Shown here piece after piece: positions 18,283 to 42,387 of a stretch of 64,000 nucleotides of DNA. Within the stretch, counting starts at the first letter, position 1; each line of letters begins with the position of its first letter. Below the pieces are notes generated by a model, which ran no database searches, was not told the DNA's origin, and worked only from the letters and a program-made list of their open reading frames with translations. Source of the stretch: Membranipora membranacea (Eukaryota; Bryozoa; Gymnolaemata; Cheilostomatida; Membraniporidae); the NCBI GenBank assembly GCA_914767715.1, contig OU612074.1:14742062-14806061 (forward strand), in the 5' to 3' direction. The position numbers and the translations under genes were made by a program.

Positions 18283-19690
18283 TATGTAATAGTAGAAGAT
18301 AGAATATGTAAGTGTAACTTTAATATTAATTACAGGAGTGTAAGGTCCCGTCCTGCACACTTCTTGTCGGATAAATTTATAATTCAAATATTAATACTAT
18401 AATTATCGCTTTGAATGGTTTGGCACAAGGTAAATTTTGGTTCTATTTTGTGTAATGGTGTATGTGTAATGGCGTTACTATATAATGTGTAATGGTTAGC
18501 ACTCTTAACTTTATGGACCTCTGAAATCCACCTAAGCAATCATTAACTTGATTATGTGTGATTCCGCAAAGTTCGGCCTAAACATGTGGTTGAGTCGCAG
18601 ACTCGCCAATAACGATGGAGCTTATTATTATAACCGATGATCAGTCGATATAACCAAGGACTTACCTTTGCCTTGAACTGGAGCTTTATAATAATTATTT
18701 TATCAAACAAATTTCATCCTGAATATTGCCACGCAATACTAATAGGAGTTTTCACAATTGTGATAAACTTACCTCGTCAATTTTTCTGACGGAAAGATGC
18801 TCGCTCCCTTCGGCCGGAATTCAATAAATGTATGTTTCTGAGTAGTTCAGTAATTTCACCAAGTTCTTAATGTGGAGAAGACATTTATTTAATTATAATT
18901 ATTCCATAAAAATTAATCCAAGTAAATTGCACGTAACACAACCTTCGTCAAGGCTGTACCAAAATGAGCTTTATCTTTATTGAAAGTATAAGTTTAAAAT
19001 CAATATTCTTTTCAGATAAATCAATGTTAACTAATCCTAAACTATTCCTAAGATGAGCTACTGCTTGCGTTTTTCTGCTACTCTTATATAGTCACAGGAA
19101 TGATTGGTCACAGCAGGGGTCGATCCTTAATCATTTCACTCGGTTGGTCGCTTAAATGTCGACATTATTGCGACACTTTCTTTGTGCCTGCATACAAAGG
19201 TCTTGCTACCTTTCTAAAGGGCTCTCGAACATTCTTATAGAGTTCTCGAATGTTCTTACTCTAGCTTAACTATTGTCCCTCATAAGATAGTAATCTTTTC
19301 ATCATCCTGGCTGTTTTGATTTCTCAATAGCATCGGCATTTAATGATCTTATTCAGATGTTAGCTCTTAAACCATAAAGTTTTGGTTTCGCAAGAGATTG
19401 TATTGTCACTCTATCTTTATGTAACTAAGAATCTAAAATTATCGAAGCTAAGAAAAGTAATATCGTGCAGTAAATCATAAAACATTGTAGCAACTGGAAT
19501 TTAAAATCATGAGAATCTAAAATAATGTCATACATTAAATCATAAAAATATTATAGAAGTTAGAGTTTAAAATATGAAAATTTATAATAATCTCAAGTAA
19601 ATTAGAAATAACAGCTAAAAGTGGTAAAACATCATAATATGAAATTGTACATTAATGTATTAGTTATCAGGTACTTACATAAGTCACGTA
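18283..19690. other. Intergenic DNA without recognisable content
   Basis: AT-rich spacer between the sulfotransferase 5' side and the duplicated upstream block of gene A. I see no ORF with splice borders and no RNA gene. Confidence 0.5.
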
Positions 19691-19699
19691 TGCATATGG

Positions 19700-21892: not shown

Positions 21893-24800
21893 ATGGCATC
21901 AAAGTTCAGCTCAGCAGCAGAGACTTTAGAGGAGTATATTAAATGTCCGATATGTTTTGAGTTTATCTGCCTACTGCTGCCACATTGCCAACATCATATA
22001 TGCGATAAATGTGTGGGTGAGTTTAGATATATAGGAGCTGTTTCTCTTTTTGCGCTGATTTTCTTTGCTTTCCAGACCCTCTTTTTCTTGCCTGGAAGGC
22101 AAGCAGCCCTTTGTAACTTGTAATTCTCACAGAATGAGACATTTTTTTTGTGACTGTAAGTTCTATTTTAGCAAAGTAAATTTGTATTTCATAGATTTTT
22201 CATTCATTATTATAATTTTGACAAGTTGTTGGTATCACGATAGTTGATTTGGCTGTATAATCTCAGATGGGATAAGAAAGCGGAACCGTGGAAAGTTTGT
22301 TTGTCCGCAATGTAGAGAGGAGTGTACTGGAGACATTCCAAAATTTCGGTTAGCAGAGAATCTCAGGAACGAACGTTTTATGACTGACGACGCAAAAGTA
22401 CTCGGTAAGATTAAAATCATTTTGGTCTTATTTTCAACTTCTGAATCACACCTATTCATCCGACACCACTGATGTCATGACACTATATGTGAAGTATGCC
22501 ATTTAGTGACCTCTATGGTATGGGTGTTACTTTGTCCTGTTATCAATCTCATTAAACAATTTCCTTCCAATTTTTCTACACTGGAGCAACGAACTAGGTT
22601 TTCAGTCCTGCTCTCTTGGATAATTAGATAATCTATTATTTATTTTCCATGCAGTTGTGGCTCAAATGAAAGAAATGTGCTTAAAAGTGTGGGTGTGTCT
22701 TTTTTAGGTGCTAAAGAAGATGGCAGTTTAAAAGGGTGCCAGTTGTGTAACAATGGGAAGGTTGATATGAGATGCAAGGAATGTAAAAAGTTTACATGCT
22801 ACAGGTGAGACTGTAAATCTGCTTTCTTATTTGATAAATTTATCAAATTGAGAATAAGTCATACTACTACAGGGTTGTGAAATTAGTTAATGAAGGTGGC
22901 ATGTTGTGTAAATAAGGTTGGTGGTATGCCATTTTTTGTGGGAACTTATTAACAGTCGATTACTAGGCCGCAGTTGGTTATCCTTTTGCCTTGTCAAGTG
23001 CCCAGCTTATTCTGAAAATTGGCTGCATAACAAGGACATGTTGTCACTGACAAACAGTTTGAGCACACAATGTATCTGCGGCTGTGTAATAATGATCCTT
23101 TTTTTAAAACCCATGAAGCGTTAAATTCGTATTGATTTCATTGATTATAAATCACTATGTATGTGTACTAAAAGCTGCGAAACATGAAGCCTAGTCTCGC
23201 TTTATTGTTTTGCGTTGTGTTGTCAATATACAAAAGACGAGTGGTGCAGAAACAACGTCACTTCGAGAATTGAATTTGAGGTACCAAACACATTTTGAAT
23301 CAAAGTTTCAGCCCATAATACATTTAGCAGTGCCAGGTCGATACTAAGAACAATAATTATGATTTGAAGATGCAGCAGAAGAAATGCTCAATGTGGTGGA
23401 AACAAACATGAGTGTGAAGATCTGGAAGACATAGAGTCAGACAGCTATAAACAGCTTGAGGCTTGGAAGAAAACAAAAAATGACCAGGTAAATAAATGTG
23501 ATTGGTTTTGAAGACCTTAGCCTAATTGTTAGATTTATATTTGACCAAGTCTGGTCCATTTGCCTATATTTGGAGTTGCTTCTCCTACACTGTTCAGGCC
23601 GCAGGGGAGCAACCGGTGTGCAGGATAACTGGGTATATCTTGTTCTAGATTTAAGTGGACTCATATCCCAACTTTCAGCAGGAGAAATGTGGTTTATCAC
23701 GTAGCTTAAATTGAAACTACATGACACAGAAGCTGAGAAAGCCCTTAAAACATTTCTCACAAGTTCTGAGAAATCAGCCTCTTTGGTTTCCTGAAACAGC
23801 TAAAAAAAAAAATTCTTTACATATGAATGAGTACCAAATTTTAAATGAAATAATCTATCCATAGGCTTAATGCCAATTATGAGTTGTATAATAATATAAA
23901 TGCATACTAAAAAGATAATAATGACTATTATTTGTTAACCCAACAAGTCTACGTTCTACTTTCTCCTTTAATTTAGATTACTTCAAAACGAAATCGACTT
24001 CAACAACTGCTAGAAGAGACTCACAGACTTGAAAAGGAGATTGTTGATATGACATCAATTTCAGAGGCTGCCTCAGAAATATGGAAAAAAGAGAGAGATA
24101 CTGTGGAAAGAATCGTTTTCGTAGAACAGCTATGTAAGATTTATCACATCATTAACCTGTCAAATATGTTTGAGATCGTAACTTAAGTTAATATCTACAG
24201 ATTATTTGTTGTTTTGACATAGCGTCCATGAAATAAAGCCTTACATCATCAGAAAGGGTTCTCCAGCCAATTAACTTTTAAATGAGACAAAAATAACAGC
24301 AACTAGGCCTGAAAATAGGACTTCTCAAAGTAAGGCCTCGCCGATGCTTGCTGTCGAACCTCAACATACACTTTGCTTATAAGTCTACCATTTGAAACTT
24401 TGGATGCTTGTATTTTCAACAATTTTGGATGAAACCAGTTGAAATCAAATGTAGCTTGTGCCATCATAAAGGTTACTCCAATGCACAAAACATGAAAGGA
24501 GATTGACCCACACTCCAAGGTAGAAAGAAATTGCTTTCACTTTAACAATTCTGTATAAGAAAAATGTCAAAGTTATTGATCGGAAATCCTGCGTCGGCCT
24601 CACGCCAGGACTTTCGGTTCTTGGGAGCAACTATAAAAAGGGCTAGTTTCAACACCTCGTTACTCACTTTCTGGTGATCCAAGTTTTGGGCTTGTTTCGA
24701 AGCTGGCTAGCTGAAGAAACAAATTTGCTGATCCAAATATTTATTTATTGGATGCTTTTGAGGGATTGATGATTACTTTCTCAGAATGTGTTCAGTTTGG

Positions 24801-27551
24801 TATTCAATTTATTGAACAGCTGACACATGATCTTTTTGGCTTGCAATGTTATTGAAACAGCCACTGGGTCTGCAAGCAACGTTTATATATCGCAACATTA
24901 AAATATTGCGATCAATTCATATCCATTTTGTTCATAGTAAGAGGTAAACTATCATGAGGAAACCAGTCAAATCCCAAATCCCTTCAACAAACTGCCACAC
25001 ACTGTTGCCTCAAAGTTTTGGGGTTGTAACAGAAGCCAGTCTTTTCTCACTGCAAATGTCGGTAAAAGGAGTAGGAGGATGCTCAGTAGGTTAGAGCGCC
25101 GTTCCTTAAGCATGCAAATGTTTAAGGTCATCAGTTCGAATCCCACAGCAGTCCGACGCCTATTAGGGTTTGGTTGGCCTCGAGGTGTGCTCCGACCCGC
25201 CTGCAGACAGAGAGCAACCTGGTGAAGATATTGCTGCCCTGCCACTGAGGCACTAATATTTCGCCCTCCATGCTTGGGGATGTGGCGTGTGATTTTAAAT
25301 CGATTTTCAATCAAAAATGTGGTATCATTTTGGCCATTCAACAGTGTCGTGTCGTGTATGGCAGTCATTTCTCGCAGCGTACTGTTTTCATTTCTTTACT
25401 CCATGTAATCCATCCACTCTACCATTCATATCTTTTTAGCCTTGAAACCTGATGTACTGCCAAAGTTGAGAGCAAACGAAGCTCAGCAACCAATTACAAA
25501 AGTCATCGATACCCATCACGGAGACATCATCAAATCTTCCCATATGAATGCGATTAATAATGTCATCAAACCACCGCATAAGAATGATAGGTCACACCCA
25601 CATGGCAAGACTAAACAGGTATGTAATAGGGTTGTTTCGAACAACGGACTGGGAAGACAAGCAATAGTTAAATGTGAATTTTTTTTGGATCAAGCCTTTC
25701 ATCAGGCCATAGCCAATCTGGTCAAAGAGGTGCAATTAAAGACATTGTATGAGTGCTTGAGCACCTTTCTTACAGCCTTTTCCTTACTTTCAGCATCTGT
25801 TAGCCCCATGTTTATAGGGTAACCCAATTGATACCTTATACTTTTGTAGATTGGTATCGTATCATAGGTATTTGCTATAAGGATCCAACTTTTTATCAGT
25901 AAGGTTTGCAAGATTCGCTGTAAACTTTGATTTAGTTGAACTACTCTAGAGGAGTGAATTATTTGCAGAAGGAAAAATTCTTGAAATAATGAACTTTATA
26001 GATAGCCAACAATTATTCATGTCTTTACTTTAATTAGATCTCCATCCCAACTAGCCAAAATTGAGCAGCATTTTATTTCCCTAGAGTAAACATTCACATT
26101 ATTTGAATGACAGCATGTAATATTTTTTGCTTCTTGCATGCATGCTAAGTTTAGAATCATGATGTCATACCTATGCTCAAACCAAAATACCGTACAATGT
26201 TCCATACAAACCTTCGCTCATACCATAATCAGAAATATCTGTTTCATTTTAATTTCATGATATTATCATGAAATTAAAATGAAACCGATATTTCTGATTT
26301 CTAATTTACTCCCCCATCACAAAATTCAGATTTTAGTGAAACAGATAAGTGGGTAATTATCTCCTACTAGGATTGTCTCAAGGCTACTTTTTGGGTTTTG
26401 AGGGTACCCCAAAAAAAGTAGCCACGTAACAAGACTAATTCCCTACCATGTGGGAAAGTAATGAATAACTAGAACATTTATGCGTTTGCCAAACAGTTCA
26501 ACATTTTTTGCTACTACGGAAGTGTTATATAGTGTGATAATAATGTTGCTGTCCGTCTATGACTGCACCGAGGTGCGGCTAGGAAGAGGTTTTTATAGTG
26601 AAGACTAGGTTTCCAAGTTGTTAGTGTCACTTTCATTATTTGATAAAGGGCTATCGTCAGGTTCTATGTTAAGTCCTGATTGCCTCTAATCTGCTGCAAT
26701 TATATTTTATAGTCTGTTCAACGTTCTGAATTAATACCTACTGCTCCGTGCTTCGTTCCTCGGCTAAGGATGGTGAGTAGCTTTTATGATTGCGCTGTTT
26801 CGTTATTATGATTAACCCACACCAATTCTAGTCTCCAGTCATTGTTTTGTTCCAGCCGAGGCTTCCAAATCATTTGTTTACCGAGATTTGTAAAATCTGA
26901 AGGTTTTCTTTGCCATAAAACTGAGAGAAGCACTCGAGTTAATGATCGTAGTCATCTTGATCGCGTAATTGTCAACTGTGATTTGTTACTTGTGACACAA
27001 TTTTTTCATTATTTTTTTTGATGATGTTGCTCATATACATTACATACATCATTATTGATTCTTACTACCACTAACTATCTAGACAGTTGAAGAAATCGGA
27101 GCGAAGACCATTTGCCAAACAGATCATCATTTTGTTGCTAGCTATATATTGTGATTAACTACCAGATTTAGGTCTATCAGCAGAGTCTATTTTAAGTCCT
27201 GTGATAGTGAAAGCCAGATTCAATTTTTCTTTCTAGCCTGTTCCCGGTTCAGAATTAATACCTACTGCTCCGCGCTTTGTTCCTCAGCAACAAGTGGTGA
27301 GTAGCTACTATGATTTCATTTTTCTCATATTATCATTGACCCACACACACATCATAGTTCCCAGTCATTACATCCACAAGCGATGGCTAAATATGACCCA
27401 CACATACCTACGTAACTCCTTTTATATATCAGATTGTTGTTGACAGCCACAGGTGTTGCAGAAAAGGGACCGAAGACCTTTGAGTATAGTCAATCCTGAC
27501 ACTAATGAGACCGTGAACACTGCTTTAGCTAGATTGTTCGATGACCTTTGA
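21893..27551 (+). CDS. Gene A: RING / B-box-like / coiled-coil protein with two PAM2 motifs
   Basis: Exons 21893-22016, 22267-22404, 22708-22804, 23376-23487, 23977-24133, 25440-25618, 26713-26772, 27237-27296 and 27453-27551. The sum is 1026 nt (341 aa), in phase throughout. Exons 1-2 form a C3HC4 RING: CPIC, then CQHHICDKC, then CPQC. Exons 3-4 form a B-box-like zinc module (C-x2-C-x8-C-x2-C-x4-C, later H-x-C). Exon 5 is a charged coiled coil ending VERIVFVEQL. Exon 6 is a polar linker. Exons 7 and 8 each encode 20 residues with a PAM2 motif (SELIPTAPCFVP and SELIPTAPRFVP), the short peptide that docks on the MLLE domain of poly(A)-binding protein. The last exon has KRDRRPLSIVNPDT, like the KRERK..I.DPN stretch of eIF4G. 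Predicted role: cytoplasmic E3 ubiquitin ligase tethered to PABP or mRNPs. AATAAA at 28335 may end the mRNA. Confidence 0.8.
25075..25275 (+). repeat. tRNA-derived SINE, copy 2
   Basis: A box in GCTCAGTAGGTTAGAGCGCC, B box in GTTCGAATCCC, body GAGGTGTGCTCCGACCCGCC. Lies in intron 5 of gene A, sense orientation. Confidence 0.85.
26228..26298. repeat. 71-bp near-perfect palindrome
   Basis: Arms 26228-26262 and 26264-26298 are inverse copies (one mismatch, CTGTTTC against GAAACCG) around a single central base. Cruciform-capable, in the intron before the first PAM2 exon of gene A. Confidence 0.9.
26382..26423. repeat. Hairpin GGCTACTTTTTGGGT / ACCCCAAAAAAAGTAGCC
   Basis: Inverted repeat of 15-18 bp with a 9-base loop, just downstream of the 71-bp palindrome and in the same intron of gene A. 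Confidence 0.75.
26488..27460 (+). repeat. Tandem duplication of a PAM2-exon unit
   Basis: Unit 1 (about 26488-27110) and unit 2 (27111-27460) are alignable. Both start TTTGCCAAACAG, run through intron sequence (TTAAGTCCTG), a 60-bp PAM2 exon with the same borders, GTGAGTAGCT after the donor, and CCAGTCATT. An exon-like CTAGACAG|TTGAAGAAATCGG at 27080-27110 (KKSERRPF) is the decayed partner of the terminal exon at 27453 (QKRDRRPL). Confidence 0.75.
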
Positions 27552-29285
27552 TCTTCGTAGCACTGCCGCGTCTATTTCTACACTTTTGTTATCATGGGTT
27601 ATTGGAGTCCAGTTGATTTTGTACCTAATAGTTTTCACTCCGAGCCAAGCGCTCGATCCTGGAACGACTCAAATATCTGAACTCAGAGATCTTAATGAAC
27701 ACACTAAGTCGCACAACATTAATAGTCAAAATCAATTTCGATACTCTGATTATTTCAATTGAAAATGCACCAATAGCAGTTCATGTTTACACTTTTGATC
27801 TACGCGGTAGAATCAGTTTATAATACACAATACTAAACCGTACTATTATCTAGTAACTAAGCTATACAAGATTTCGCCCTATTTTATTGATTTCAAATGT
27901 ATCTGCTCTTAAAATGATAGTAGCAGCATATTTTTCCGTCTTTTGTGAATAATATTTGTAAATGTAAAACATTTATATGCATTATTTTTCCATCATAATT
28001 AGAAGATGAGCCATTCTATTTATATTACAATTTAGACTTGTTATTGAAAGTTGGTTCAGTACATTGGGTGTAGATAAATGAATCAATGGAAATTGATGTT
28101 TTTTTTAATTCAAAGTCTCAGACTCTAAACCCTAAGACTAGAGTTTATCAAGAATTTCTGTTATTTAGCCATGCCTTTTCGCTCGATTTACGAGTATTCT
28201 TTACCAAGGTTGTTTAGTGTGATCTAGACAAATACATATTTTCACCTAGTTTTACAACTACTGTGCCACTGATTCAGGTAAATTTATCATACTTGTGAGC
28301 AGTTATTGCTTCTTTGACTGATTTTTGTAATATAAATAAAATATAATTTCTTCTGAGGTTATCTTTTTGTTTTTTTAATTTAACTATCGTCAACCCGAGG
28401 GCTTATGCCCTGTCCCCTCTAACGTATTTACCTTTACTAATTTTCAGAAGCACCCTAATCGTGCATTCTGCCAACATAAATGGCACAAAATAGTAGTAAG
28501 CTGGAGCGATAGGGTATTATTGATTTATTTTTCAACTCTCAATCTCAGTATAACCCATTTGTTGTTCGTCTAACTTGCCTTTAATGAAAAAAATTGGATT
28601 ATTAGGTTCCAAGTTAACTTTCCACATGTTGAAGGCCTGTTAAGTTAGAAGTTCCATTACTCTAGAGGGAATTCAACATTCCAACTGAAGAGTTTTGAAG
28701 AAAATGCTATTTGCTTAGTGACAATTCTTCAATCACTACAAGGGGGTCTAGCAGTAGTCCATGCAAGGCCAATAACCCTAGCATGTACGCTGTGTTTCAT
28801 AAGGTAGTGAATTGCGGACATGCTAAATAGCGCCCTCCACCCCTTCTGTTTTGGGATTGGTGAGATGGCACGATTGTTTGATGCGTTGCTATTCACTGCT
28901 AGCCGATTGATGCCGCAGGATTTGTTGGTTAGAGGTTGCTTGTTCCAGCCCCCAGCACCCTCAGATGTTTACCTCTTTCTGTCTTTAACCAATATCTCCA
29001 TTGTAAGACCTCAATCAAAAATTTTGATGAATACACCACCATTCATTGGCTTTTGTCACCAGAAATGTGAGAAAAAGAAAGCAGAAAATTGAACTTAGAA
29101 GTGTAGGGGTAGCTGTGTGAAAATAACAAGAGTCAGAAAATTTTATGAATATGCATGCCACTTTAGCCAGCGTAACAATGGTTTTGTATTTACAATAACA
29201 AACAACGACACACTGGACGGGAGAAGCTGAGTATCATAATTGTCTAGTAGAAGGTAGAATATGTTAGTCAGGTGGGCATATTGTC
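27552..29285. other. Gene A 3' UTR and spacer to the second duplication block
   Basis: No exon matching the W2 region of gene B is visible here, so gene A does not appear to continue into a W2 domain. AATAAA at 28335-28340 is a plausible poly(A) signal. Confidence 0.5.
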
Positions 29286-29289
29286 TGAA

Positions 29290-31655
29290 ATATAGAAGAC
29301 AAAATGACTTGAAAATTACACAGTCTGTATGTAGTGACGATCTCGGTCAATACACATAAACTTAGGCACAATATCCTTGAAATTAGGCAGACAATCCCAC
29401 AATTGGAGATATGTTCACAGGTCTTATAGGCACAATCGCGCAATGACTAGTATTCCTTACTTCAGACAGATTGTTGTTGTGATTTTGACAAAGAAAATCG
29501 GATTTGAGCATGTGGTTTAGCTAGGGGTGCCCGCAAGGCTTAAATAAAGACTGATAGATGCTAGTTTTTTTAGACTTATACATTTTTAAGTAGTTTAATT
29601 TCCAGATATCCAGATATTGGACATGTATCTCGCAATAACACTCCTTGTATTACAATGCTACGTTGAGATAATAAGATGATATCTATTAACATACGATAAT
29701 TTCATTTGTGTAAGCGGTTGATGTCTCATGGCATAAAGTGGTAGGGAGTATGAGATCAAGGCAAACAGCTGCTTGTAAACTGCTGTGTCACAGCAAGGAG
29801 TGGTCACAGCAAGAGATTGTCATTATAGTCACAATTATAGTGTAGTTAGGCCAGAGACCATAGGTAATCCATAGTCTCTGGTTATGAGACTATAGTCATA
29901 TATATAGTATCTGGTTAGGTGGTGAGCCATTATTGGAGTTGTGCCCTTTTGTTCCGGAGAAGAACAACTCCTTCCATTTTTAAACAACCGTTGCTACAAA
30001 ATAAGGATGAGCCAATAGGAGACCTATGATGACCGAACCCACCAATGACACGAAATATAAGCTTCTAGCGATTGTAATACTGATGTTTCTTTCCATTTCC
30101 TGTTCAAAAAGAAACTTCTTCAGTCAAGGTTTTAAATGTATACTGATGGGGAATCCCCAGGCACTTTAGAAAGTTCCTAGGACAGCTGCATATTTTCAGA
30201 CTTTGGACTTGGTCAGTCGTTGACTCCATCATTAGTCCCAAATTTAAGCCAGTGCTTGTTTTGACAACCGCATCATAATGAGGTAACTTTTGAAACAAGC
30301 ACTTGCTACACTACTATAGACATGGGCACCTGCCCTGGGGGATCTGCCCAGCAGTACACTTTGCCCATGTCCACTATCACATGGACATGGACATTGGCAA
30401 AGTGTACTGCTGGGCAGATCCCCCAGGTGCCCATGACTATAGATAGTCTAGTGATCATTTAGGTTAGACTTAGAGGTCTAATTTAATTGTATATTCAGTT
30501 TCATCGACTGTGAGCCTGGAAAGTCCTTGAACTGACATGAGCCTCTAACATAATATCGTTCATCAGTTCTGAACGGATACCTTGACTGGTCGCTAGCGGC
30601 GGGTGCGTGAAGTCACTTGTTGGACACTGGCAGACTTGGGGCATTGCCAGGCAGTCTTGAGGCATTGTAGAGCAGTTGTTAGACCGTCTCAAGATTGTGT
30701 GAGGCAGTCTTGAGATGTTGTAGGACTGTCTTGAGACGTTATCATAGACTCACTCTATCTCACAGCATGAGAAAAATATTCAGGTTGATAACTATATATG
30801 CTCCCAAACCTTTGATTTTTATTGAACTAATTTTAATTTCGTAATAAAACTATGTTAAGTGAGAGGTATATGACTTGCTTCCAAAGGGGCTAAACCCTTG
30901 TAAGATATTAATTATGAATTTAGCATAGGCTCTACTGCAATTTTTTGCAAGTCCAATGCCCTCAAGTTATTATTGCAGAAAAAGCTCCAGTTGTGTATTG
31001 ACAGTAGCCACAACGACATGAAGGCGTTTGTGATTGGTGTTATAAAACTTGACAGGTGCTGTAAGGGACTTATCTTACATCACCCAAGGTCTATACAGCA
31101 GTGCTCCGGGTGCCCTAGGGGTAGCATGAGTGCTGTAAAAGACATGTTCCATACAGCACCTGCCACACAACTTACATCAACCATCTCACCTTGGGACATT
31201 GTATCAGGGTTTAATTTGACTAAGTATCTAAAATATGTTTTAACACACAGCATGGGCAACACCAACAAACTCTCTACTATGATTTTCTCATAGTTTTTCA
31301 TGCAAACCTTATAACACCTAAGAATGCCATCAATAGTCTTGCTACATCTTAAACCTACAGAACCCGATGCCAGCGCCAATTCAGAACAGGCTTTCTGATA
31401 TAACGAGCGAATATTGAAAGGGTCAACTTCAATACCTCATAACACAACTTGTATTGGGCTAAGAGGGTCAATTTTGGGCTTGTTTTGAAGCTGATTAGCT
31501 GGAGAAACAAATCTTACTTTCATGGATGCTTTAACATGACATATCACCAATGATAACTAAGATCCTCTTGCCAATACTAGAACAGCAGTATTGAAGCTCT
31601 GGTCATGAAATAGTTATGCTTTGCGGAATATTTTAGGTAACAAGAAAGACATGCG
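29290..31655 (+). repeat. Segmental duplication, upstream block of gene B
   Basis: Collinear copy of 19700-21892 with extra insertions (30178-30300 and the palindrome at 30320-30435). Conservation of this non-coding block up to both start codons suggests the two genes share ancestral control sequences. Confidence 0.85.
30320..30435. mobile_element. 116-bp palindromic insertion with 7-bp target duplication
   Basis: Arms of about 50 bp (30320-30371 and 30385-30435) read ACATGGGCACCTG..GCCCAGCAGTACACTTTGCC and its complement. They are flanked by ACTATAG on both sides (30313-30319 and 30436-30442). The collinear place in the gene A block (about 20553-20575) lacks it, giving an empty site. A minimal foldback transposon or MITE. 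Confidence 0.8.
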
Positions 31656-34600
31656 ATGGCTTCAAAGTTCAGCTTGCTGACAGAGGCTTTGGAACGGCTG
31701 ATAGAATGTCCAATTTGCAATGAGTCTGTCACTCTGCAGCTGCCCCCTTGTCAACATCACATCTGTCAGTCTTGCATTGGTGAGTTCAGATCCTGATGGG
31801 ATATGTTTCCATTTTAAATTGCCTTGCAAGAAAAACTAAGCTCTCAAAGGTGCATAACATGATTTCCTTGAAACTCAAAGGCCTAGGCTAGGGTGTATTG
31901 ATAGCTTAACTGTTTTAACACCAAATCTTGTGAGTTGTTGCAACATTTCGCCGTTCAGAACTGGTAAGAAAACTTTTAATGACTCACCAAATTGCCGCAT
32001 AAACTAAGGGCTTCAATGGTTATGCTCCGTATAGTGTCCTGTCTATGTTTGTTTTTGAGTCTATTGGAGAACCTTACATAATTACAGTATAGAACAAATT
32101 ACCTAACTTTTCTTCTGACAGATCGGATAAAGAAAGACAATGCTGGAAAGTTTCTTTGTCCGGAATGTAGGCAAGTGTTCACAGGAAGATTTCCAAAATC
32201 TCTCCTAGCAGAGAGCATTAGGGATGATGCTGCCAAGATTGGAGATACTGGTAGTCTCAATGCAGGTAGGCTTATTAAAAAGGGCGATTAAAAGGGTCAA
32301 TTCAAATCGGATGTCTTATAAAACGCCACATCCCGAAGTATGGGCGGTGAAGTGAGTTGCGTTAGTGGCGAGGCTGCAATATATTCGCCAGGTTGCTCTC
32401 TGCTTGCAGGCAGGTTGGAGCACACCTGGGGGCCAACCAAACCCCAGCAGTCGATGAACCCCAGTGGGATTAGATCCGACAACCTTCAACATTTGCATGC
32501 TAGAGATACGGCGCTCTAACCAATTTGAACAGGGTACTACTCTGTAGTTTTAAAACGATAGTTTCACTACGAAAACAATGTTTCAGTATGATTCCTGTCA
32601 ATCGTTCTTGAATTTCGATGATGCTCTAAATCATCCCTCTTACAACAATTTGAAAGGATGAGACACTGTATTGACTTTTAACGCTGAAAAGTATGCACTA
32701 CATAATCACGCTGAACACGTGATATACTATTGCATGTATATCTCTGATCGATAGAGAGTGAATTAATTCACTTAACAAGAGTACCATCACCAGAAATTCT
32801 GAGTGACGACCTGTGTTCAATTTTACTAATTAGGGTCGGGTACATGTTAGGTACTCTTACTATATTGACTCTAACAATCAGAGATACATATGATAATAGT
32901 GTAGTCTCAATGTGAGTGTGCTGCATAATCTTACGCATTTGTTATATCAAAAGTTTGAATTAGGTGTGCTGTCCAACCCTGACAGCAAAGCAAATTTAGA
33001 AATTTGACAATTTCTATTCTAATCTTAAATTGCTATAATAGAAAGAATTACTGCATTCCCTCAGGTACAAGAAATAAATGTTTGACTGGATGCCAACAGT
33101 GCAAAGATGGAAGGATCGATATGAGATGTGGACAGTGTAAAGTATTTATGTGCTATAGGTCAGTAGAATTTTCATAGTATTGACATTGCTGTTTCTTCAG
33201 GAAATGTCCTGATATGCTTGTTAGACTATCTAGAATCTAGATTCTCTCTTTCGTATCAAATTATAATATATTCTTTTCTGCCCCGATTCGTCATTATTGC
33301 CAACAGGCAAAATCCGGATGCATTGAGATGCATTTGATTTAAACATGCTCTGCTAGTTAATATGTCTCTGTAATATAGACAGTTTTCTGAACCCAAATAT
33401 GAGCCTTTGTTCGAAGTTTACCTCCTTCCAGTTGAGTACTCTTGAAAACCGATTGTAAAAGGATAATAATTCCTTTTGATAAAACACCGGCATCATCGAA
33501 AACTCATGGTATTCGAATAGTTATTCATATTAACTTCTGTCTGTCTTGTTGACAATTTTCCATGGATTTCGTGAAAGAAACTGAGATTCATCAGCCTTCT
33601 AACCCATGATGATTTGAAAACACCTGTCCATCTAACTTTCAAATGATGCTAATGCTGAATCTTGAATAGTTCATAAGCATTTTGAAAGATATGCCCATTC
33701 CAGAAAACTATCTATTGCAAATATCACACGTATACGGCTTAAAAATATGGTGCTCTCTGCTTTATCGCCACATTACACAGATGTAGCAGAAGAAAGACTT
33801 GCGATGATAAAAAACATGATTGTGAGGATGTAGAAGACTTAGAGTCTGAAAGCCAAAGGAGCCTTGAAGCTTGGAAAGAAGAAACAAAACAGAAGGTTAG
33901 CTCAAAGTTCGAGAATGAACTTTGAAGTGATAGCGCACTATCACTTTTAAAGTTCATTCAGCGATTTTGGAAAACGAGATGATAAGAATATGAAATTCTG
34001 TTATTTTACTGATGTCCTAATTTTATATTAGACAGATGATGATGGTTTTGATTTGATTAATCGATAAGTAGACTGTTCGTTAGTTTATGTCCCCAAAGCT
34101 TACTGCCTGTTGCTGACTTACTTGCTGTGTACTATCTCTGGCTAGTTTTGCGGGCATGTAAGATACTTTGATCAGTGTCCTAATGGAAGGGGAGGGGGCA
34201 GTATAGATAGCGTCTCATGATCTGAAAGCAGACCTCAACTACATTTTCACATAATGGTGTTAAAGGTTTATCAAGAAACAAAATACATAAATATTGTAAT
34301 ACTAGGTGATTAAATTCGCAAAAAAACTGAAAAACCAGCTTTTATGAATAAATGGGTTGGTGTGCTTAATATGACCTACTGTCTTTACTATAATTGTATT
34401 GGTGATTGTATGTATCATAACATTGGCCAACACCCTGTATCTATTAATTTAGATTGCTTCAAAACAAGCTCAAGTTCAACGAGCCGTTGAGAAGATAGCT
34501 CAGCTAGAAATTGAGAAGCAGACTACAAGGGAGGAGATTGATAACATGACCTCTCTATTGAGCTCAGCTACAGTGATATGGGAAAACGAAAAAGATGCTG

Positions 34601-37600
34601 TGGAAAGAATTGTATTTGTTGAACAGCTTTGTAAGTAGATCAAATGGAAAAAGTTTGAGGACCATATCTTCCCGAATAAACTTTGATTATTTTACTGTAT
34701 ACTGTAAGTTGCCCACATGCTATAGTAAAGTATGGGGAATGAGATGTTATACAGGAAATACTGCATCTGTAACCATAATGAGTTTAGCTCAGGGTTCCAT
34801 TAGCAATATTAAAGAGAATGACACAGCCCCTTTATGAACTGATAGGCAGCAACAGTATTAACACCAGAAGACAACCTTCTCTAACAATGCCGCATGTATA
34901 AGAAAGAGTCGCCATCAGAGCAGGTGGCCAATCAAATGGCTTTGGAATCCCTAGACTCAATACTGCAGAGATCAGCTCATGCCTCAGAGCTGCGCATGCG
35001 CATGATGGTTATTGAGAAAGTCTGCTTTAAAACCATCGAGTCTTTGGACACTAGGAGCCTCATGGTGCTGAATAGTACGGCAGTGTGGTATCCTAGTGCC
35101 TCGAAAGCAACCATTTTACATCTTCAAAGAGCACGGTAGTTTGAGACTCATTTGTAAACATATTTTAAAGATCGAGTGATCATAACCTTGACTGTTTTTC
35201 AGCATCTTGTTTTCCTTGTTGTCATTGTCAGAGGAAACAATCAAGTCTTCAGTGAACACTGTTATTCATACTACTTTCAGCATCCACAAAGCCAGGATCT
35301 AACAAACCCTTACTTCAGCTGAAAGCTCGACAAGCTAGGTCTCAGCGACAAGCCGTAATGAAATGTGAATATGAGAGCCATCATAAGCCATCAAAAGCCA
35401 TCAAGAGCCATCAGAATCAGGATCTCATCAAAGGTGAACACGCGAAGGTCATAAACAATGAAATCCGAACTCAACCTGCCAAGCTGCCCACCAGGAGAGA
35501 GCCTAAAACTGTGGAGGTGAGAACTTATTTACTGTGTGCCCTAGGTGTATATCTTAGTTCTAGGTGTAATAGAGGGGACTTGGAGTCAAGAAAACTATGG
35601 CAACGTCAAAGCAGTCTGGTATCATAACAGGTCAACTGGTTAATAATGGAATACTACTACCATAAACCTTGGTCATGCTTTAGCACATAAACTAAGTAAA
35701 ATGTGCACTACATTCTATCTGTCTTCTATCTGACTTTAGGAGTTATCCATTGACACATCTGTGTATACGGTTCAGACATTATATCAAATTCTCCTGGAAC
35801 TAGTACCAAATGCAGCAGTATCACGATGGATCAACTCTCACAACGCACAAAGGAAACATAACTCGTTCGGATTTATCAAGATTCTTACGCAAGCTGTGTT
35901 GAAAGCATGTTTCAGTGAGTTAATTTTTTTATTACCATGTACGTGTTTAGTGTGGTCGGTTTTTGGAGACTTAATTTTAGCTAGCAGCAGTTTTGCTAGC
36001 TAAGTTACCACTGTCGAACTTACAAAATTGATATTTGATTTCCTCAACTCCCATTGGTCAGTTATTTATATCTTGAAATATCATGGGTGATAGGACCATA
36101 ACCAAGGATGTCAAATTATACCTATTAATACAAAAACTCATACCAGCGCCACAAGAAAATGGCACAGAATCCAAGACAAGTAGTTGTCATTCTAAATACA
36201 GAAATAAAGTTTTCTGGTACTACCGGAAACAAAAATACCGCTTGAATTTGAACACATCATAGGTCATGTTGCTAACTATTTTGTGGGTAATGCAATACAA
36301 GTTACTTACCATTCCTCTGCAGACTCCAGAATAAAAAAAGAAAAATTCATTGTTCATAAATTTATGGAGGAGCTGTGAAGAGATAACATATGTGTATATA
36401 TTTCATTAGCAAGTGCTCCGAGCAATATAGTAATGAAAAAAAAAAGTTGCACCAGAGTGGACATTTCATTTACTAACCATTTTCATCAAATTTTTATAAA
36501 CATCTTTGTCTCATTTCCGTTCTCATGAATTGGCATTGCTTATAATCGATGATGTTTCTTCTCTATCATGAACTCAACCGTGTTAGGGAGATTAACCTGT
36601 TCAAGTAACTCCTTAATTGTCTTGTCAATTTCTGCAGTTTCACTAATTTGAGTGTGTGCATAGACTAGCCTTGATCAATGCTATCAGTCTGATTTATTCT
36701 TCAAATCTATCACTGTAGTTATTGCATACTCTTTTTGATTGTTCAGATTCAGTCCAGGAGTTGGATGAGGAGATGTTGAAAAGCCGTGCACCTCTGCTTA
36801 AACAATTTTACAATCGTGATAAACGAAGAGAAGCTCATGCACTTAATATATTGGAAGAACTGCCTGAGGTACGGGAAAATATGGGTAAGCTACTCTGTTT
36901 AGGTACTGTGTTTGTAATGAGAGGCTAAAAAACTTTTGATTTGAAGGCTGGTCCTATCTATATAGACACATGCATTTGTAGGCAAGACTTGAACTTACAG
37001 CGGGAATATGTTTTAAATCCAGGTAAATATGGCCCTAAATATGGCTTTCTAAAGTCCACATGCTTTTGAAACTTTTATTACAAGGTATACCTGCTATTGG
37101 CCATAATTGTTTAAGAATTTTTTTTTTCTTACCTCAATGATTAACAAGATAGCTGGGGGTTCCCCTTTAGGAGGGGGGCGACTAATACGCCATTTCCTGG
37201 TTAACCCCCAATAAGTTAGAAATAAACATTTTAGTAAGTACAGTAAGTTGCTGGAGAACAGCATGGGCAGGGCAAGAACTTTATAGGAGGAAATTCGGCC
37301 TCGATACTTTAGAAAAGGCGGAAAATTTAGCACCAAATGAGAGGAGTTTATAACGGAACTCCCTCTCGCCAAATACACAGCCCAATAAGTATCAGTTATG
37401 TTTAATATAACTTAAGTAGGCATCTGATTTCCACCTGCCGTGCACCTGTATCTGAGCTGCGGTCCATCCTCTCTTTCTAGCCCAAGTAGCCCCTCCATGA
37501 CGGAAACAGTGCGGTGTGAGTTTTGACTTTATCCCCGCTCTGCCAGCTACTTACTGTAATATTTTCCCAAACTCCTGGGCGGAAACATCAAAGAGTGGTG

Positions 37601-40600
37601 ACTCAGTGCCCTGTCAAGTCTGAGCAGATGACTGGAAGACACTGCAGTTTTCGTGCCTTCTGTAGACTCATTCCTAAACCCTTTCAGCAGCATCTTGAGT
37701 CTTTCTGAGTCCAGGGATACTTTTAGGTCTAACTTGCGAAAAGAATGGCGTAGGGAGGGATGTGGGTCAGTACTGTACTGTAAGCAAGGCCCTCTTTCTT
37801 CAGATGTGCAATCCACAACTCCACCGAAGATTTACAGGCTTCTGTCTGGTAAGGAAGGTCCATGCCGTCACAGAACTTTTTGAATTTGTTAAAATATTTT
37901 TCATAAATCTTTGCAGACGCCGGGCATACTGATGCACCGATCAGTCTGTCCACTTCTTCTTCAAGTTCTACAAAAAGAGGAGGAAAGAATTGAATGTATC
38001 ATTAAATGTACTGATACCTAATTATTATAAGGTCAAGAAGAAACTAATTTATCTCTCGCCACGGGTGAAGAAATGCCCTGCTGACAAGGGGCAACTAATA
38101 CGTCATTGCGATAGCTGTTTGTTAGATCCATGTAATGAAACCCGAGTTGATTGGGTTGAGATGGTGGGGGATGACTATTGGATCTGATCTCATAGCAGAA
38201 AATGTAAGCCGAAATTTCTCTATTTTGCCTCTTGATAGGAGATCTGGACCGATATTATCCACACCTTTCACATGGAATGCGGAGATGTGAATATTCCTGT
38301 ACAGGCAGAGCTTTGCAATGTGGCGAAGCATCCTACGTAGAGCAGGTTCCTTACTGTATAGCTTGTTGATAACGGCGACCAGGGCCATGTTGTCGGTGAA
38401 CACTCGAATGGAACAGTTGGCCACACACTCCTGAAGCATCAGGAGAGCAATCACTATTGGGAACAGTTCCAGCACTGCTATATTAGGCACTGCAACCTGA
38501 GGCCAGGATCCGTAAAACCACTGGTCTCCCCAGACGCCTCCAAAACCCACAGAAGTTGATGCATCTGTGATTAACGGTGAGAATGAAGTAAAATCCACCA
38601 GGACAATGTCGTATGGTTTTTCAGGAGGGGCCTCAAGTAAAGCACACCACACCCTTAGATCCTCTTTCACCTCCTCACTCACTCGCCTTCTCTTGTTCTT
38701 ACTCTGAGACAAAACACCTGCTAATCCACCATACACACTACTAAGGTGAGTGCGTCCTGCTCGCATCACTTGTGCCAAGTAATTCAGGGAGCCTGCTATC
38801 GACTGCCACAACTTTACTCGGGGGGCCTGCAACCGCAAAAATGAGGTGAGCTTCTCTTGGACTTTGACCCTCTTCTAAGCTGGTATAAAGAATGTCCTTC
38901 TTTGTGAGTCTATCCGTAGACCTAAGAAAACTAGCCGTTGAGTTGCCCGGACTGTTTTATGAGCTGCTATGGGGATTCCTACCCAAAGACAAAGGTCCTC
39001 GAAAGCACTAAGGGCTGCATCACAAGCCTCTCTTGAACTCGCCATAAACAGAAAGTCATCTAGATAGTTAAACACATCAGCATCTTCCCTGTAAACATTG
39101 TGGAACATTGACTTTATGCCATCACTAATCCTCTGGAAAATGTTACAAGATGATGAAGCGCCCATTGGAAGCATCCTGTCGATGTGAAACTCTCCCTGGA
39201 CACAAATTTCTAGGTATTTCCAGTCCTGGGTCCGAATAGGGACTATTCTATAGGCATCCGCTAAATCCACTTTGGCTAGCCACACGTTACCAAGAGGCTG
39301 TCTAGCTACCATGCTCTTTGCAAAATCCTCAACTGAACAATAATGGACTGATTTTTTTCCTCTTTGATGAAGTCATTCACAGAGTTACCTTGTGGGGATG
39401 AAAGATTGAAAATCAATCGGTGCTTTGTTCCACATGGTTTTGGTATCACATAAAGAGGATATATTTTTATATCATGAAGCGGAGGGATTGCGAAAGGCCC
39501 TATAACTCTATTGTGTTTTTGTTCTTCTTTCAGTTTAGCCAATAGTGCAGTATTTGCTGGTCTGAGCCTCACTTCCGTTTTTGATATTGAGCAGCTCTCT
39601 TGAACGCCTAGTGAAAGCCCGTTCGAGAACCCTTCTACCATAAATTCTTTGTCCACACAACCCTCTAGTTCAATTGCCAGTTTGGATGGGCTGACTGGAG
39701 TTTGTACCTTATACCTCTCAAAATCTGAAAATAAAGGTTAACATTATGCAATTTGCTAGACACAATTATTTCTGTGCCAATCATAAATGTGACCAAACCC
39801 CCCCTCCTCCCCCCATCCTGAAGAGACCGACTAATACGGCATTATTGACATCACCATGCACAGTTAAGAAGCCTTTTGTTTAGAGCATCTGTAGTCGGGG
39901 TGTTGGGCGCTGTAGCACACCTTGCATTTATGGGCGAAGCGGCAGCTCAGTCCAAACTTACACCCCTCGTGTGAGTTAAACTTGTGACAAAGCTTCCTTT
40001 TATGGGAAAGCTTGGCCCCCGATCTATCCTGGTCGCTGGTCTTTTTGGTGTCTTTTTTTACTGGCTGCTGGATGTTGTTTGCCAGCTCTGTAAGGTACTC
40101 CTCCCAGACTATATCTACATGTTGGGCTTTCAGTTTCCTAAACTGGAAGTCATACTCGACTGCCTCTTTCTCTGCCGCGTGCATTCTTTTTACAATTTGA
40201 AGATGGCGTAGCATGCCCTGAGCCTCGCCAGTAAAGAATTCCAGAGTTAAGCTCATATATATGATATATGCATCTAACCATTTGTAAAAGACCAGATTCT
40301 CATTGTCTTCCACCTCCTCGAAGTAGCCGTCACTTAGGGTGAATTTCTTCCTTGTTTTTGCCCACGAAGATGAGGAAGAAGGCTTTTAAAGCCCACAAAC
40401 TTACCCAGTCGGACCTTTTCTCTGACTTTATCATCGTCCGATGTTGTAGGGACGATGGGCATGGAGCCCAGAGGCCTGACCCTCTTGTTGCTCGCCTGCA
40501 CCTGCACCTGCACCGGAACCACCTCCTCCACTTCTGAATCCTCAAAGCAGCTCGAGTTGATCTCCGAGGTTGTAACCCTGGAGGTAGAAGGTACAGGACC

Positions 40601-42387
40601 TTCAGGCTAAGAAGCCTTTCTCTTGGAAGAGCCGCGAACCGGGGCCTTCCCCTTCCTGCTGGAATCCAACGTTGCCTTACGAGTTGTCTCCTGTAAATCA
40701 TAATAAGAATGAAAACTGCCCTACTCCTTTTACAGCAAATGGCGGGATATCCTTTTATTGTTACATACACAATACTTAGAAATAACAGGGCACTTCCTTT
40801 CCATAAATTAATGACGCCCAGAAATATTAAATTTTTTGAATGTTGCGAACTAAGCATGAGCTAATGCCGACAATTTGAACTTTAGGCAACGGTCATCTTG
40901 TGGCACGGCTATTGATAACACATCACCTTTACAACGCTGTGTATTTCACCACTGTTTTGTATATCATAACACACTTCATTAGCGACAATTCATGTACATT
41001 TATTTCAAATAAACTTTTTGTCTTGAGAATTGTTTTATTGGTATTTAACAAGGACAAAATAACTATACAGCAAATAAAATGATGGTTGAGTGAGGTCCGA
41101 CTAATACGGAATTTAGATCTGCTGGTATCACCAGAGGTTGTGGTGGGCTGCCCATACAATGATGGCCTGGAGATATCGAACGGCTGTTCGGTAACCGTGG
41201 TCAGTAAGGTGGGTGTTGTCTCTGTTTCTCCACGGTTGCCTTCTATCTCAGAGCCAAAAGGTTACCGCCTCATCCCCCAAGTGTCTTTGCTCCATTATGG
41301 ATGCAAACTCCCTGGCTCTCAGATTGTACTGAGGGTTGGACCTTGGCCACTGAGAAGTTATGACGACAGTCTGGGCCCGGTACTGGTCCACCATCTGCCG
41401 TCCTAGATGACCAATCCTGTCAGCCAGTTGAGTTGCAGACATGCCACTGTCGAGATCACTGCCTCCAAGCATCAAGATGACCACATCCACATCTGTTGCC
41501 GAGAGGGCATTCCTCTCTCCCCATCTTATGCCGGCCCCTCTTCTCTCCGTAAATCTAAGTGAAACCCCACTCAGGTGGTGTAAGAGCTCTTGCTGGTATC
41601 TATCCAGTCTTGACACATGGGAATCCCCCATTATGAGTACAGAACAATTCTGGAAATAGAAAGCACAATTGTAAGCAAACAGGCACCACCATTCTTTAGA
41701 TGTTAATTCTTGCACCTACCCAGCTGTTATATATATATAGCGTTAATATAAAGCGAGAAAAGTGATGAATCCATAAGTGCATGAGCGAGAATGAAAGCAT
41801 TCACTTATGCGTTAAATTATGAAATTATTACATTATTTAAAGCGTATGTTACTAAACTACCCTGATTTCCCTCCCCTCAGCCAGATAATCCAAAAAGCCT
41901 TAACTCTGGTTCCCCAGCAGGATGAAGTGGGGTGTTTAAAGTAAGCCGATTAATCCACAGGTAATGGTCACCTCAAAGCCGTTGCTCAACTCTTAAAGAA
42001 GTGCTTCCCTGTGTTGTATAACTCCAGAGCCCTTTGGGGTTGCGTATTTATTATGCAGATAGCTTGATAAACACAACTCAAAACTTAGCCCATACCTGCT
42101 ATTGGCTAAAATTGTTTAAGAATTTTTTTTTACGAATTTGCCATCTAAAGCCATCATTTCTAGCCAGTAATTGAATCAATGACATCAAATTTTTTATTTA
42201 AGCCATATAGTTGATATGATATATGTGGAATTTTGTAGCCTATCTTAGTGACATATTCTATGTATTGTCCGATGAAGATGTAATATCGGATGATTCCTTC
42301 ATCAGCTGGTACTCAAAAAGTATGGATGATGAGGTGAAATGGTCGGTTGCAGAATTCTTCTTAACTCATCTTCGCCATGTAGTTTAA
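31656..42387 (+). CDS. Gene B: RING / B-box-like / coiled-coil protein with eIF4G-type W2 domain
   Basis: Exons 31656-31779, 32122-32265, 33065-33158, 33787-33895, 34453-34630, 35281-35516, 35740-35914, 36747-36884 and 42239-42387. The sum is 1347 nt (448 aa plus stop), in phase at every junction. RING: CPIC, CQHHICQSC, CPEC. B-box-like: CQQC, CGQC, CYS, HDC. The coiled coil again ends VERIVFVEQL. Exon 6 is a basic, histidine-rich linker with an in-frame 8-11 bp DNA repeat (AGCCATCA). Exons 7-9 form a HEAT-like W2 domain: FIKILTQAVLKACF, then LLKQFYNRDKRREAHALNIL, then the acidic AA-box LSDEDVISDDSFISWY and a final AEFFLTHLRHVV. In eIF4G and DAP5 this C-terminal domain binds Mnk kinases or eIF2beta. 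Predicted role: E3 ligase acting on or through the translation-initiation machinery. Intron 8 is 5.35 kb because of the DIRS-like insertion. AATAAA at 42973. Confidence 0.87.
32320..32535 (-). repeat. tRNA-derived SINE, copy 3
   Basis: Minus-strand head with A-box GGTTAGAGCGCC (mutated) and a damaged B box, and the shared body GTGTGCTCCAACCTGCCTGC. Lies in intron 2 of gene B, antisense. Confidence 0.8.
33375..33715. mobile_element. Diverged copy of the 15535-16041 MITE family
   Basis: Left end ATAGACAGTTTTCTGAACCC and right end (complement) ATAGATAGTTTTCTGGAA, 341 bp, in intron 3 of gene B. Confidence 0.6.
33913..33959. repeat. Hairpin just after the exon 4 donor of gene B
   Basis: GAATGAACTTTGAAGTGATAG (33913-33933) and its complement (33938-33959) around a 4-base loop, starting 18 bases after the splice donor at 33896. 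Confidence 0.8.
37392..37967 (-). pseudogene. Tyrosine recombinase of the DIRS/Ngaro-like element, frameshifted and internally deleted
   Basis: Starts after TTTTTGTAG at 37968. The N-terminal SAM-like core is readable (ASAKIYEKYFNKFKKFC) to about 37745, then the frame shifts to RHSFRKLDLKVSLDSERLK. The C-terminus regains the catalytic signature in a third segment (37540-37392): LTPHCFRHGGATWA, then HGRWKSDAYLSYI with the likely nucleophilic tyrosine, then a stop at 37392-37394. Total span is about 190 codons, short for this family, and I cannot find the first catalytic arginine box, so an internal deletion is likely. The enzyme would have joined circular cDNA into the genome. Confidence 0.8.
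38122..39724 (-). pseudogene. Reverse transcriptase-RNase H of the DIRS/Ngaro-like element, two lesions
   Basis: Begins after TTTATTTTCAG at 39725. RT: LFNLSSPQGNSVNDFI, then a one-base shift at an A7 run (about 39352-39360), then LAKVDLADAYRIVPI and the active-site YLDD in FNYLDDFLFM. A TAG at 38875-38877 interrupts before the linker. RNase H follows intact, with aspartate in PLITDASTS, glutamate in AVLELFPIV, and aspartates in VFTDNMALV and VDNIGPDLLS. The gene ends in a stop at 38122. With two lesions it is not functional, though each half is well preserved. Confidence 0.88.
39864..40690 (-). pseudogene. Gag-like protein of the DIRS/Ngaro-like element
   Basis: Starts after GATTTACAG at 40691. 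The first frame (ETTRKATLDSSRKGKAP) meets a TAG after 27 codons and continues PEGPVPSTSRV to about 40334. Another frame then carries the main body (KKFTLSDGYFEEV to the stop at 39864). A strong donor-like GGTAAGT near 40408 leaves open a small intron instead of a frameshift. The C-terminus has a CCCH zinc finger (CHKFNSHEGCKFGLSCRFAHKC) running into a second CxxC/H/C cluster, a nucleic-acid-binding tail. Confidence 0.7.
41128..41649 (-). pseudogene. SGNH/GDSL hydrolase-like ORF of the DIRS/Ngaro-like element, one in-frame stop
   Basis: Starts after TTCTATTTCCAG at 41650. Block I is VLIMGDSHVSRLD with the nucleophile serine. Block II is suggested by the glycine in RRGAGIRWGE, and VVILMLGGSDLD replaces the usual GxND (S for N). 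A TGA at 41248-41250 breaks the frame, but the same frame goes on to block V, DNTHLTDHGYRTAV, with the Asp-x-x-His pair, ending at 41128. Such hydrolase domains are known from Ngaro-type elements and may act as esterases; their role in transposition is unknown. Here it is the 5'-most ORF, before gag. Confidence 0.8.

Follow-up and report, generated by a model that had tools for sequence, protein, structure and literature searches.

Predicted RBCC-type RING genes ending in parts of the initiation factor eIF4G in the bryozoan Membranipora membranacea

The stretch of DNA described here (the window) comprises 64,000 nucleotides of the bryozoan Membranipora membranacea, taken from a 339 Mb genome in 18 contigs (C10:14742062-14806061, C10 being contig OU612074.1). 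On its forward strand lie two tandem paralogues, gene A and gene B, both of which begin with six exons of the RBCC (RING, B-box, coiled-coil) type. An earlier note on this DNA had read gene B (31656-42387) as a TRIM-like RING protein that ends in a W2 domain of the kind found in eIF4G, which scaffolds cap-dependent translation and is a usual target of viruses. Here, we describe an in-phase RBCC-W2 gene model for gene B, with a W2 of the eIF4G class, and we find the same RBCC module repeatedly associated with different eIF4G parts: a PABP-binding exon in gene A, an eIF4E-binding exon in a further gene (gene D), and, in three array units, parts running from the N-terminal region to W2. The combination of a RING/B-box-like front and an eIF4G-type W2 in one model holds and is repeated in five other genes; as these models stand, gene B belongs to a family of RBCC-eIF4G genes and does not stand alone, a context (gene A, gene D and the array) that the earlier note had missed.

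The nine exons of gene B join in phase, as had been claimed, and the frame is open from the ATG at 31656 to a stop that ends at 42387, with GT-AG borders at all eight introns and entry phases of 0,1,1,2,0,1,0,1,1. The coding sequence comes to 1353 nt and 450 residues rather than 1347 nt and 448 residues, a two-codon difference at the junctions. An in-frame TAA, separated from the ATG by 15 nt, allows this ATG to be the genuine start; directly 5' of it, an acceptor-like AG suggests a non-coding first exon. Exon 5 ends in ERIVFVEQL, an ending conserved in gene A, and exons 6 and 7 are separated by an intron of 223 nt. Intron 8 is enlarged by the remains of a retroelement, which we take to be of the Ngaro/DIRS class. 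In Pfam, its reverse transcriptase is above cut-off (RVT_1, 53.5 bits), and an SGNH-like domain (Lipase_GDSL_2, 28.7 vs 32.9) and a recombinase-like domain (Phage_integrase, 21.5 vs 27.1) are below theirs. By eye, a decamer resembling GACTAATACG occurs about four times inside this element.

With TRIM/RBCC ligases gene B has in common a C3HC4 RING, a cysteine-rich B-box-like module, a presumed helical linker and a variable C-terminal part. The RING scores 27.1 bits against Pfam zf-RING_UBOX (cut-off 25.2), and its nearest RINGs in the PDB are those of TRIM32, BRCA1, UHRF1 and TRIM21; for the RBCC genes together, the nearest TRIM RINGs there are TRIM32, TRIM21, TRIM5 and others, alongside BRCA1, UHRF1 and RAD18. 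All eight zinc ligands of the RING are conserved in genes A, B and D and in gene C, an array gene described below. The B-box scan of gene B gave E=1.3 for zf-B_box and E=0.049 for an ANCHR-like B-box, both below cut-off, yet four aligned paralogue rows agree at seven Cys/His positions of the module, and the TRIM21 RING-B-box chain 5olm matches gene B across both modules. The RBCC-type front proposed earlier is supported for the RING; for the B-box-like module, the invariant Cys/His positions and the 5olm match speak in favour and the Pfam scores do not. Gene B differs from TRIM/RBCC ligases in this sub-threshold B-box, in a short linker exon and in having W2 as its C-terminal domain; in the TRIM classes that place is taken by SPRY, NHL, MATH or other domains.

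Searched alone, exons 7-9 match the W2 family PF02020 with 33.9 bits, as compared with 23.7 bits in the whole gene B protein (cut-off 30). A phmmer search with the same exons against 177,635 distinct PDB sequences yielded five matches at E<=10, all of them eIF4G1 or eIF4G2/DAP5, the best at E=3.3e-8. A profile of four W2 sequences from the same genome reached eIF4G1 at E=4.3e-21, DAP5 at 8.5e-5 and 0.0031, and eIF5 at 0.27 and 0.29, the remainder of its 19 matches at E<=1 being unrelated (interleukin-2, ribosomal protein). Since this profile ranks eIF4G1 far ahead of eIF5, we assign the gene B W2 to the eIF4G class. The earlier note was correct on this domain, on its AA-box and end (AEFFLTHLRHV), and on its standing in place of SPRY, NHL or MATH: in Pfam at E<=1, genes B and C contain only RING-type families and W2, and no recognised TRIM C-terminal domain was found. 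Gene B shares its W2 and AA-box with the C-terminal W2 (HEAT-3) of eIF4G1/eIF4G3 but, at the same Pfam threshold, is without their MIF4G, MA3 and eIF4E-binding region. DAP5/eIF4G2, an eIF4G relative that can act without eIF4E, is likewise W2-ended; unlike gene B, it has no RING. No match for a PAM2 motif was found in gene B, and queries for the eIF4E exon, the MIF4G end and MA3 taken from an array unit gave no match in the window at E<=0.05.

The RBCC-W2 arrangement recurs on the contig of gene B at a distance of about 10 Mb. PF02020 has seven matches in the genome, of which four lie on C10 at 4.19-4.60 Mb, while C1, C5 and C6 have a single match each. The four C10 loci, which belong to eIF4G-type units, share the three-exon W2 layout of gene B; its exon 9 is 49-54% identical to all four, and its exon 8 is 54% identical to two, the alignments to the other two overrunning the exon at 42%. 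At least 12 RING first exons lie at C10:4.21-4.67 Mb, and five of these have exons 2-6 and a W2 within 4.4 kb (gene starts 4207690, 4298884, 4329287, 4431357 and 4492575). Each of the five has nine exons, GT-AG introns and an open frame of 420 residues, so that with gene B six of six models are open throughout; in all six the W2 directly follows exon 6 in matching phase, across an intron of 205-206 nt in the array copies. Gene C (start 4431357) repeats the phases of gene B, with 31% identity between the two proteins over residues 9-442 (E=1e-58); in Pfam, this one of the five array copies scanned exceeds the cut-offs for both RING (33.0 bits) and W2 (40.6 bits). Because five further nine-exon copies are open with the same phases, the joining of RBCC to W2 is not an exon-joining artefact. 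A genome search with gene C, in which 100 of the 162 candidates were scored, gave at least 104 matches, and all counts for the array are minimum values. Some of the recent copies might be duplicates introduced by the assembly, although their sequences are not the same. Upstream of the RING exon in four of the five array RBCC-W2 genes, at about 2.2 kb, there is an eIF4G PABP-motif exon. At one array locus (L049; 217-432, 645-1187; RING ATG at 2390) no stop, by eye, interrupts the frame between an acceptor-like AG and the RING ATG, and a transcript comprising eIF4G N-terminus, RBCC and W2 is conceivable there.

For the RBCC part, genes A and B differ by 0.33 nonsynonymous substitutions per site (dN) and 1.46 synonymous substitutions per site (dS). 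Between genes B and C, dN is 0.69 in the RBCC and 0.60 in the W2, and synonymous sites are saturated. The five array copies are recent, with RBCC dS of 0.01-0.14 and identical W2 coding sequence in two of ten pairs; their RBCC dN/dS is below 1 in all ten pairs, with values of 0.06-0.6 in the nine pairs where dN is not zero.

Gene A is 42% identical to gene B over residues 1-283 (blastp, E=2e-75). Its RING is recognisable by PDB matches to RAD18 and TRIM21 and its ANCHR-like B-box is weak (E=0.0032); a W2 was looked for in gene A and not found. The motif L.P.A..F.P occurs twice in the six frames of the window, both times in gene A, with 0.04 expected (300 shuffles), and was not found beyond gene A on either strand of 21 loci scanned (of 48). 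As defined in the excerpted text of PMC2854688, PAM2 has a hydrophobic residue at position 3, P or V at 5, A at 7, F at 10 and P at 12, with a polar residue, usually N, at 4; SELIPTAPCFVP and SELIPTAPRFVP agree at positions 3, 5, 7, 10 and 12. Both depart from a stricter consensus, LNxxAxEFxP (excerpt of PMC7356810), in having Ile at 4 and Cys or Arg at 9. Over 22 residues, the last exon of gene A shares 73% identity with an exon from an eIF4G-type unit in the same genome (E=1e-5; E=0.0085 for the site in a genome-wide search), and on this ground we keep its link to eIF4G. Compared directly with the human eIF4G PABP-binding peptide it is not significant (the score is reached by 193 of 20,000 shuffles of the tail and by 183 of 20,000 of the peptide), at least seven other open reading frames of the window outscore it, and PDB searches with the gene A tail and with the last exon each gave no match. 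The stretch at about 27085-27124 resembles, by eye, the start of the last exon, which together with the tandem 60-nt PAM2 exons suggests exon-level tandem duplication. A parallel to gene A is offered by MKRN1, a RING ligase that carries CCCH fingers and, to our knowledge, no eIF4G-derived part. MKRN1 is reported to reach PABP through PAM2 and to act on translation, ubiquitylating PABPC1 and RPS10 (excerpt of PMC6805484).

Longer units of the array, known from ordered domain matches and not from end-to-end gene models, join the RBCC to more of eIF4G. The unit at C10:4572016 (+) holds, in order, RING, B-box, linker, an exon 6-like exon, an N-terminal exon, KRERKPLTIINPDTHETVN, a KKVYDRDFLM exon, the MIF4G end, MA3 and W2, and the phases from linker to PABP motif permit, by eye, one reading frame. 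Its KRERKPLTIINPDTHETVN motif resembles the human eIF4G PABP-binding peptide (present in PDB 1lj2 and 4f02), with KRERK identical. The YDRDFLM exon matches the eIF4G1 fragment 5t46_B, from what we take to be an eIF4E complex, at E=7e-6; weaker matches, of 2.5e-4 at best, are to four further eIF4G chains. Two exon 6-like exons, phase 1-0, lie between the linker and the eIF4G N-terminal exon of this unit (C10:~4581050-4583150) and are candidates for mutually exclusive use. Units 4224978 and 4530476 run RING, linker, exon 6, N-terminal exon, PABP motif, eIF4E exon, MIF4G and W2. The Pfam search listed no MA3 for these two and no MIF4G for unit 4572016, whose MIF4G end was seen by tblastn. Other units are less complete: 4388511 has RING, MIF4G, MA3 and W2 with no N-terminal exons detected, and in 4179325, 4448680 and, only partly, 4469109, MIF4G and W2 were detected but neither N-terminal exons nor a RING. 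The unit at 4126562-4164517 has N-terminal exon, PABP motif, eIF4E exon, MIF4G, MA3 and W2 and no RING match, so that a candidate for an ordinary eIF4G exists; a TGA, possibly intronic, falls within its PABP-motif match. A DAP5-like gene, identified by eye, is separate on C1 (W2 in locus L002, MIF4G at 8111101).

Gene D, which lies beyond the window, has seven exons, six GT-AG introns, phases of 0,1,1,2,0,1,1 and a frame of 318 residues. Its KRVYGVDFLMSLRTAPASKVKPVGTPTLNE exon is 55% identical to the array eIF4E-binding exon, and in Pfam its RING reaches 25.9 bits, barely over the cut-off of 25.2, and eIF_4EBP 15.9 bits, below the cut-off of 24. An alternative donor for exon 1 breaks the frame and was set aside for the frame-keeping one. 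The frame stops soon after the eIF4E-binding exon, and splicing onward into further eIF4G exons may occur. Diverged MIF4G pieces lie on either side of the window, at C10:14734192 (-), 14817640 (+) and 14831377 (+), and for this reason the window may sit in a second, older eIF4G/RBCC cluster.

Table 1. Positions of the modelled genes, exons and associated features (window coordinates unless marked C10)
Feature	Position	Strand	Content	Basis
Gene B exon 1	31656..31779	+	Start codon, first half of C3HC4 RING	Splice/phase, Pfam, paralogue-invariant Cys/His
Gene B exon 2	32122..32265	+	RING second half	Splice/phase, Pfam, PDB matches
Gene B exon 3	33065..33158	+	B-box-like zinc module, first part	Splice/phase, domain scan, paralogue rows
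Gene B exon 4	33781..33895	+	B-box-like zinc module end, helical linker start	Splice/phase, paralogue rows
Gene B exon 5	34453..34630	+	Presumed coiled-coil/helical linker	Splice/phase, paralogue rows
Gene B exon 6	35281..35516	+	Poorly conserved linker	
Gene B exon 7	35740..35914	+	W2 part a	Splice/phase, PDB match, profile
Gene B exon 8	36747..36884	+	W2 part b	Splice/phase, PDB match, profile
Gene B exon 9	42239..42387	+	W2 part c with AA-box, stop codon	Splice/phase, Pfam, PDB match, profile
Gene B intron 8	36885..42238	+	5354 nt, enlarged by minus-strand retroelement	
Retroelement remains, presumed Ngaro/DIRS-like	37087..42131	-	Inside gene B intron 8, flanked by two 40-nt direct repeats of 95% identity	
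Gene B 5' flank	29266..31276	+	Collinear pieces duplicated from gene A flank (19682-21384), 80-95% identity	
Gene A	21893..27551	+	Tandem paralogue of gene B; 9 exons, 345 residues; RBCC exons 1-6, followed by two PAM2 exons and a final exon that carries the eIF4G PABP-binding motif	
Gene A exon 7	26713..26772	+	PAM2 motif SELIPTAPCFVP, 60 nt, phase 0-0	
Gene A exon 8	27237..27296	+	Second PAM2 motif SELIPTAPRFVP, 60 nt, phase 0-0; repeat of exon 7	
Gene A last exon	27447..27551	+	KRDRRPLSIVNPDTNETVN, stop-terminated; eIF4G PABP-binding motif	
Gene D	C10:14835059-14838381 (locus L047 159-3481)		RBCC and eIF4E-binding exon KRVYGVDFLMSLRTAPASKVKPVGTPTLNE; 29 kb past window end	

The window also contains an inverted repeat in the gene B flank (30334-30427; 40 nt, 98%, 14-nt gap) that would form a strong hairpin, and a long interspersed nuclear element (LINE)-type element at 8290-11097 with a 935-residue frame that includes a reverse transcriptase (RVT_1 101 bits); a 355-residue frame at 5564-6631 precedes it. 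An exon-like frame at 14997-15236 (-) is sulfotransferase-like by eye and has no Pfam match at E<=0.001.

From the sequence evidence, we consider the chances about even that gene B encodes a TRIM-like E3 ubiquitin ligase that docks by its eIF4G-type W2 and acts at initiation complexes. In favour are the splicing and phases of gene B, the W2 matches, the five further copies, dN values under dS, the tails of genes A and D and the order of parts in the three array units, with MKRN1 as a precedent for a RING ligase brought to PABP. The family could have begun when an RBCC module joined eIF4G within the tandem array, after which internal deletions and duplications would have left RBCC genes with single eIF4G pieces; RBCC-W2 would follow directly from loss of the middle, because exon 6 ends and the W2 begins in phase 0. 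In the encoded proteins, the RING would recruit an E2 and the B-box and linker would oligomerise, while the eIF4G piece would place the ligase where eIF4G would sit, gene A on PABP, gene D on eIF4E and gene B on W2 partners. The ligase would ubiquitylate initiation factors or displace eIF4G from them and thereby throttle translation under regulated conditions, for example during stress or infection. Reported partners of the DAP5 W2 are EIF5C, EIF2S2 and MNK1 (excerpt of PMC10746786). The earlier note had proposed Mnk, eIF2 and eIF3 as docking partners and stress or antiviral control of translation as a possible role, both of which stay conjectural.

Several observations weigh against this interpretation. 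The B-box of gene B stays under the Pfam thresholds, and the RING of gene A, at 16.9 bits, is under the cut-off of 25.2. Exon 5 measures 178 nt in gene B vs 94 nt in the array copies, a difference of 28 residues that makes a TRIM-type antiparallel dimer doubtful, and exon 6 is barely conserved (20.5% identity between genes B and C). The gene B W2 is without the acidic C-terminal run that we take human eIF4G1 to have, so Mnk binding may be lost, and a retroelement of about 5 kb in intron 8 could impair splicing of exon 9. In gene A, both PAM2 motifs have Ile at position 4 instead of the usual Asn, and the two PAM2 exons compared with each other differ at proportions of 0.20 of nonsynonymous (pN) and 0.25 of synonymous (pS) sites, with no clear constraint. 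Two donors were selected by frame: that of gene D exon 1 because it keeps the frame, and that of exon 6 in the array genes from two candidates as the other breaks it. Finally, different tails may mean different mechanisms.

An unlikely alternative, in our estimation, is that the eIF4G pieces serve as bait: they would lure pathogen proteins that attack eIF4G or PABP, and the bound pathogen protein would be ubiquitylated, as TRIMCyp catches capsids by cyclophilin A. Every tail found is a known functional eIF4G surface; PDB 1lj2 holds the human PABP-binding peptide together with what is presumably rotavirus NSP3; and an array in which at least 12 first exons encode a RING and five RBCC-W2 copies are nearly identical fits genes in conflict, although arrays arise without conflict too. 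TRIM clusters are reported to acquire host-domain fusions repeatedly, which can have antiviral effect (excerpt of PMC6677749). Positive selection, however, was not seen, dN/dS being below 1 wherever both could be estimated, and no pathogen partner is known.

We regard as rather improbable a competitive mimic, in which the RBCC only oligomerises and the free W2, or the PABP- and eIF4E-binding tails of genes A and D, titrate eIF4G partners like 4E-BP or Paip2. The eIF4E-binding exon of gene D with its weak 4E-BP similarity would fit such a mimic, as would the partners reported for the DAP5 W2, but genes A to D keep all eight RING zinc ligands, which a pure competitor would not need. It is quite improbable that the RBCC-W2 genes are debris of the array, by-products of deletion or unequal exchange that are intact through youth alone. 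The five array copies are indeed recent and some units look partial (the MIF4G-W2 units), whereas gene B is old and yet open through nine exons, and the dN between the RBCC parts of genes A and B is well under dS; because its frames are intact at saturated synonymous divergence from gene C, we do not take gene B for debris. Very improbable is a division of gene B into two genes, an RBCC gene made of exons 1-6 and an unconnected W2 remnant in exons 7-9: exon 6 is poorly conserved and RBCC and eIF4G-type units adjoin in the array, but the W2 comes immediately after exon 6, behind a short intron and in matching phase, at six of six loci, and in the models of genes A and D the same RBCC exons join other eIF4G pieces in phase.

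TRIMCyp, the TRIM5-cyclophilin A fusion, acquired its cyclophilin A by retrotransposition and carries that domain, whereas the genes described here carry intron-bearing eIF4G exons from several parts of one protein. RING ligases act on stalled ribosomes and PABP, and we know of none built from eIF4G pieces; among open-licence papers, no relevant paper on a RING or TRIM joined to W2 or eIF4G was found. In TRIMCyp as in the present genes, an RBCC is fused to part of an otherwise unconnected host protein, inside a cluster that is expanding (excerpt of PMC6677749; see also PMC2924388). Tentatively, and with much more doubt than confidence, we suggest that in this animal lineage eIF4G and an RBCC ligase may have merged into one gene family. 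Some of its eIF4G-type units would start with a ligase module of their own, and its PABP-binding, eIF4E-binding and W2 surfaces would be shared among short RBCC proteins, yielding modular ligases able to capture or replace each contact that the cap-binding complex makes and perhaps serving to lure viruses. With one RBCC front ahead of PABP-binding, eIF4E-binding, W2 or near-complete eIF4G sets, the family supplies proteins on which direct control of eIF4F assembly by ubiquitin can be tested, and it may parallel TRIMCyp, with a host part borrowed here from the translation machinery.

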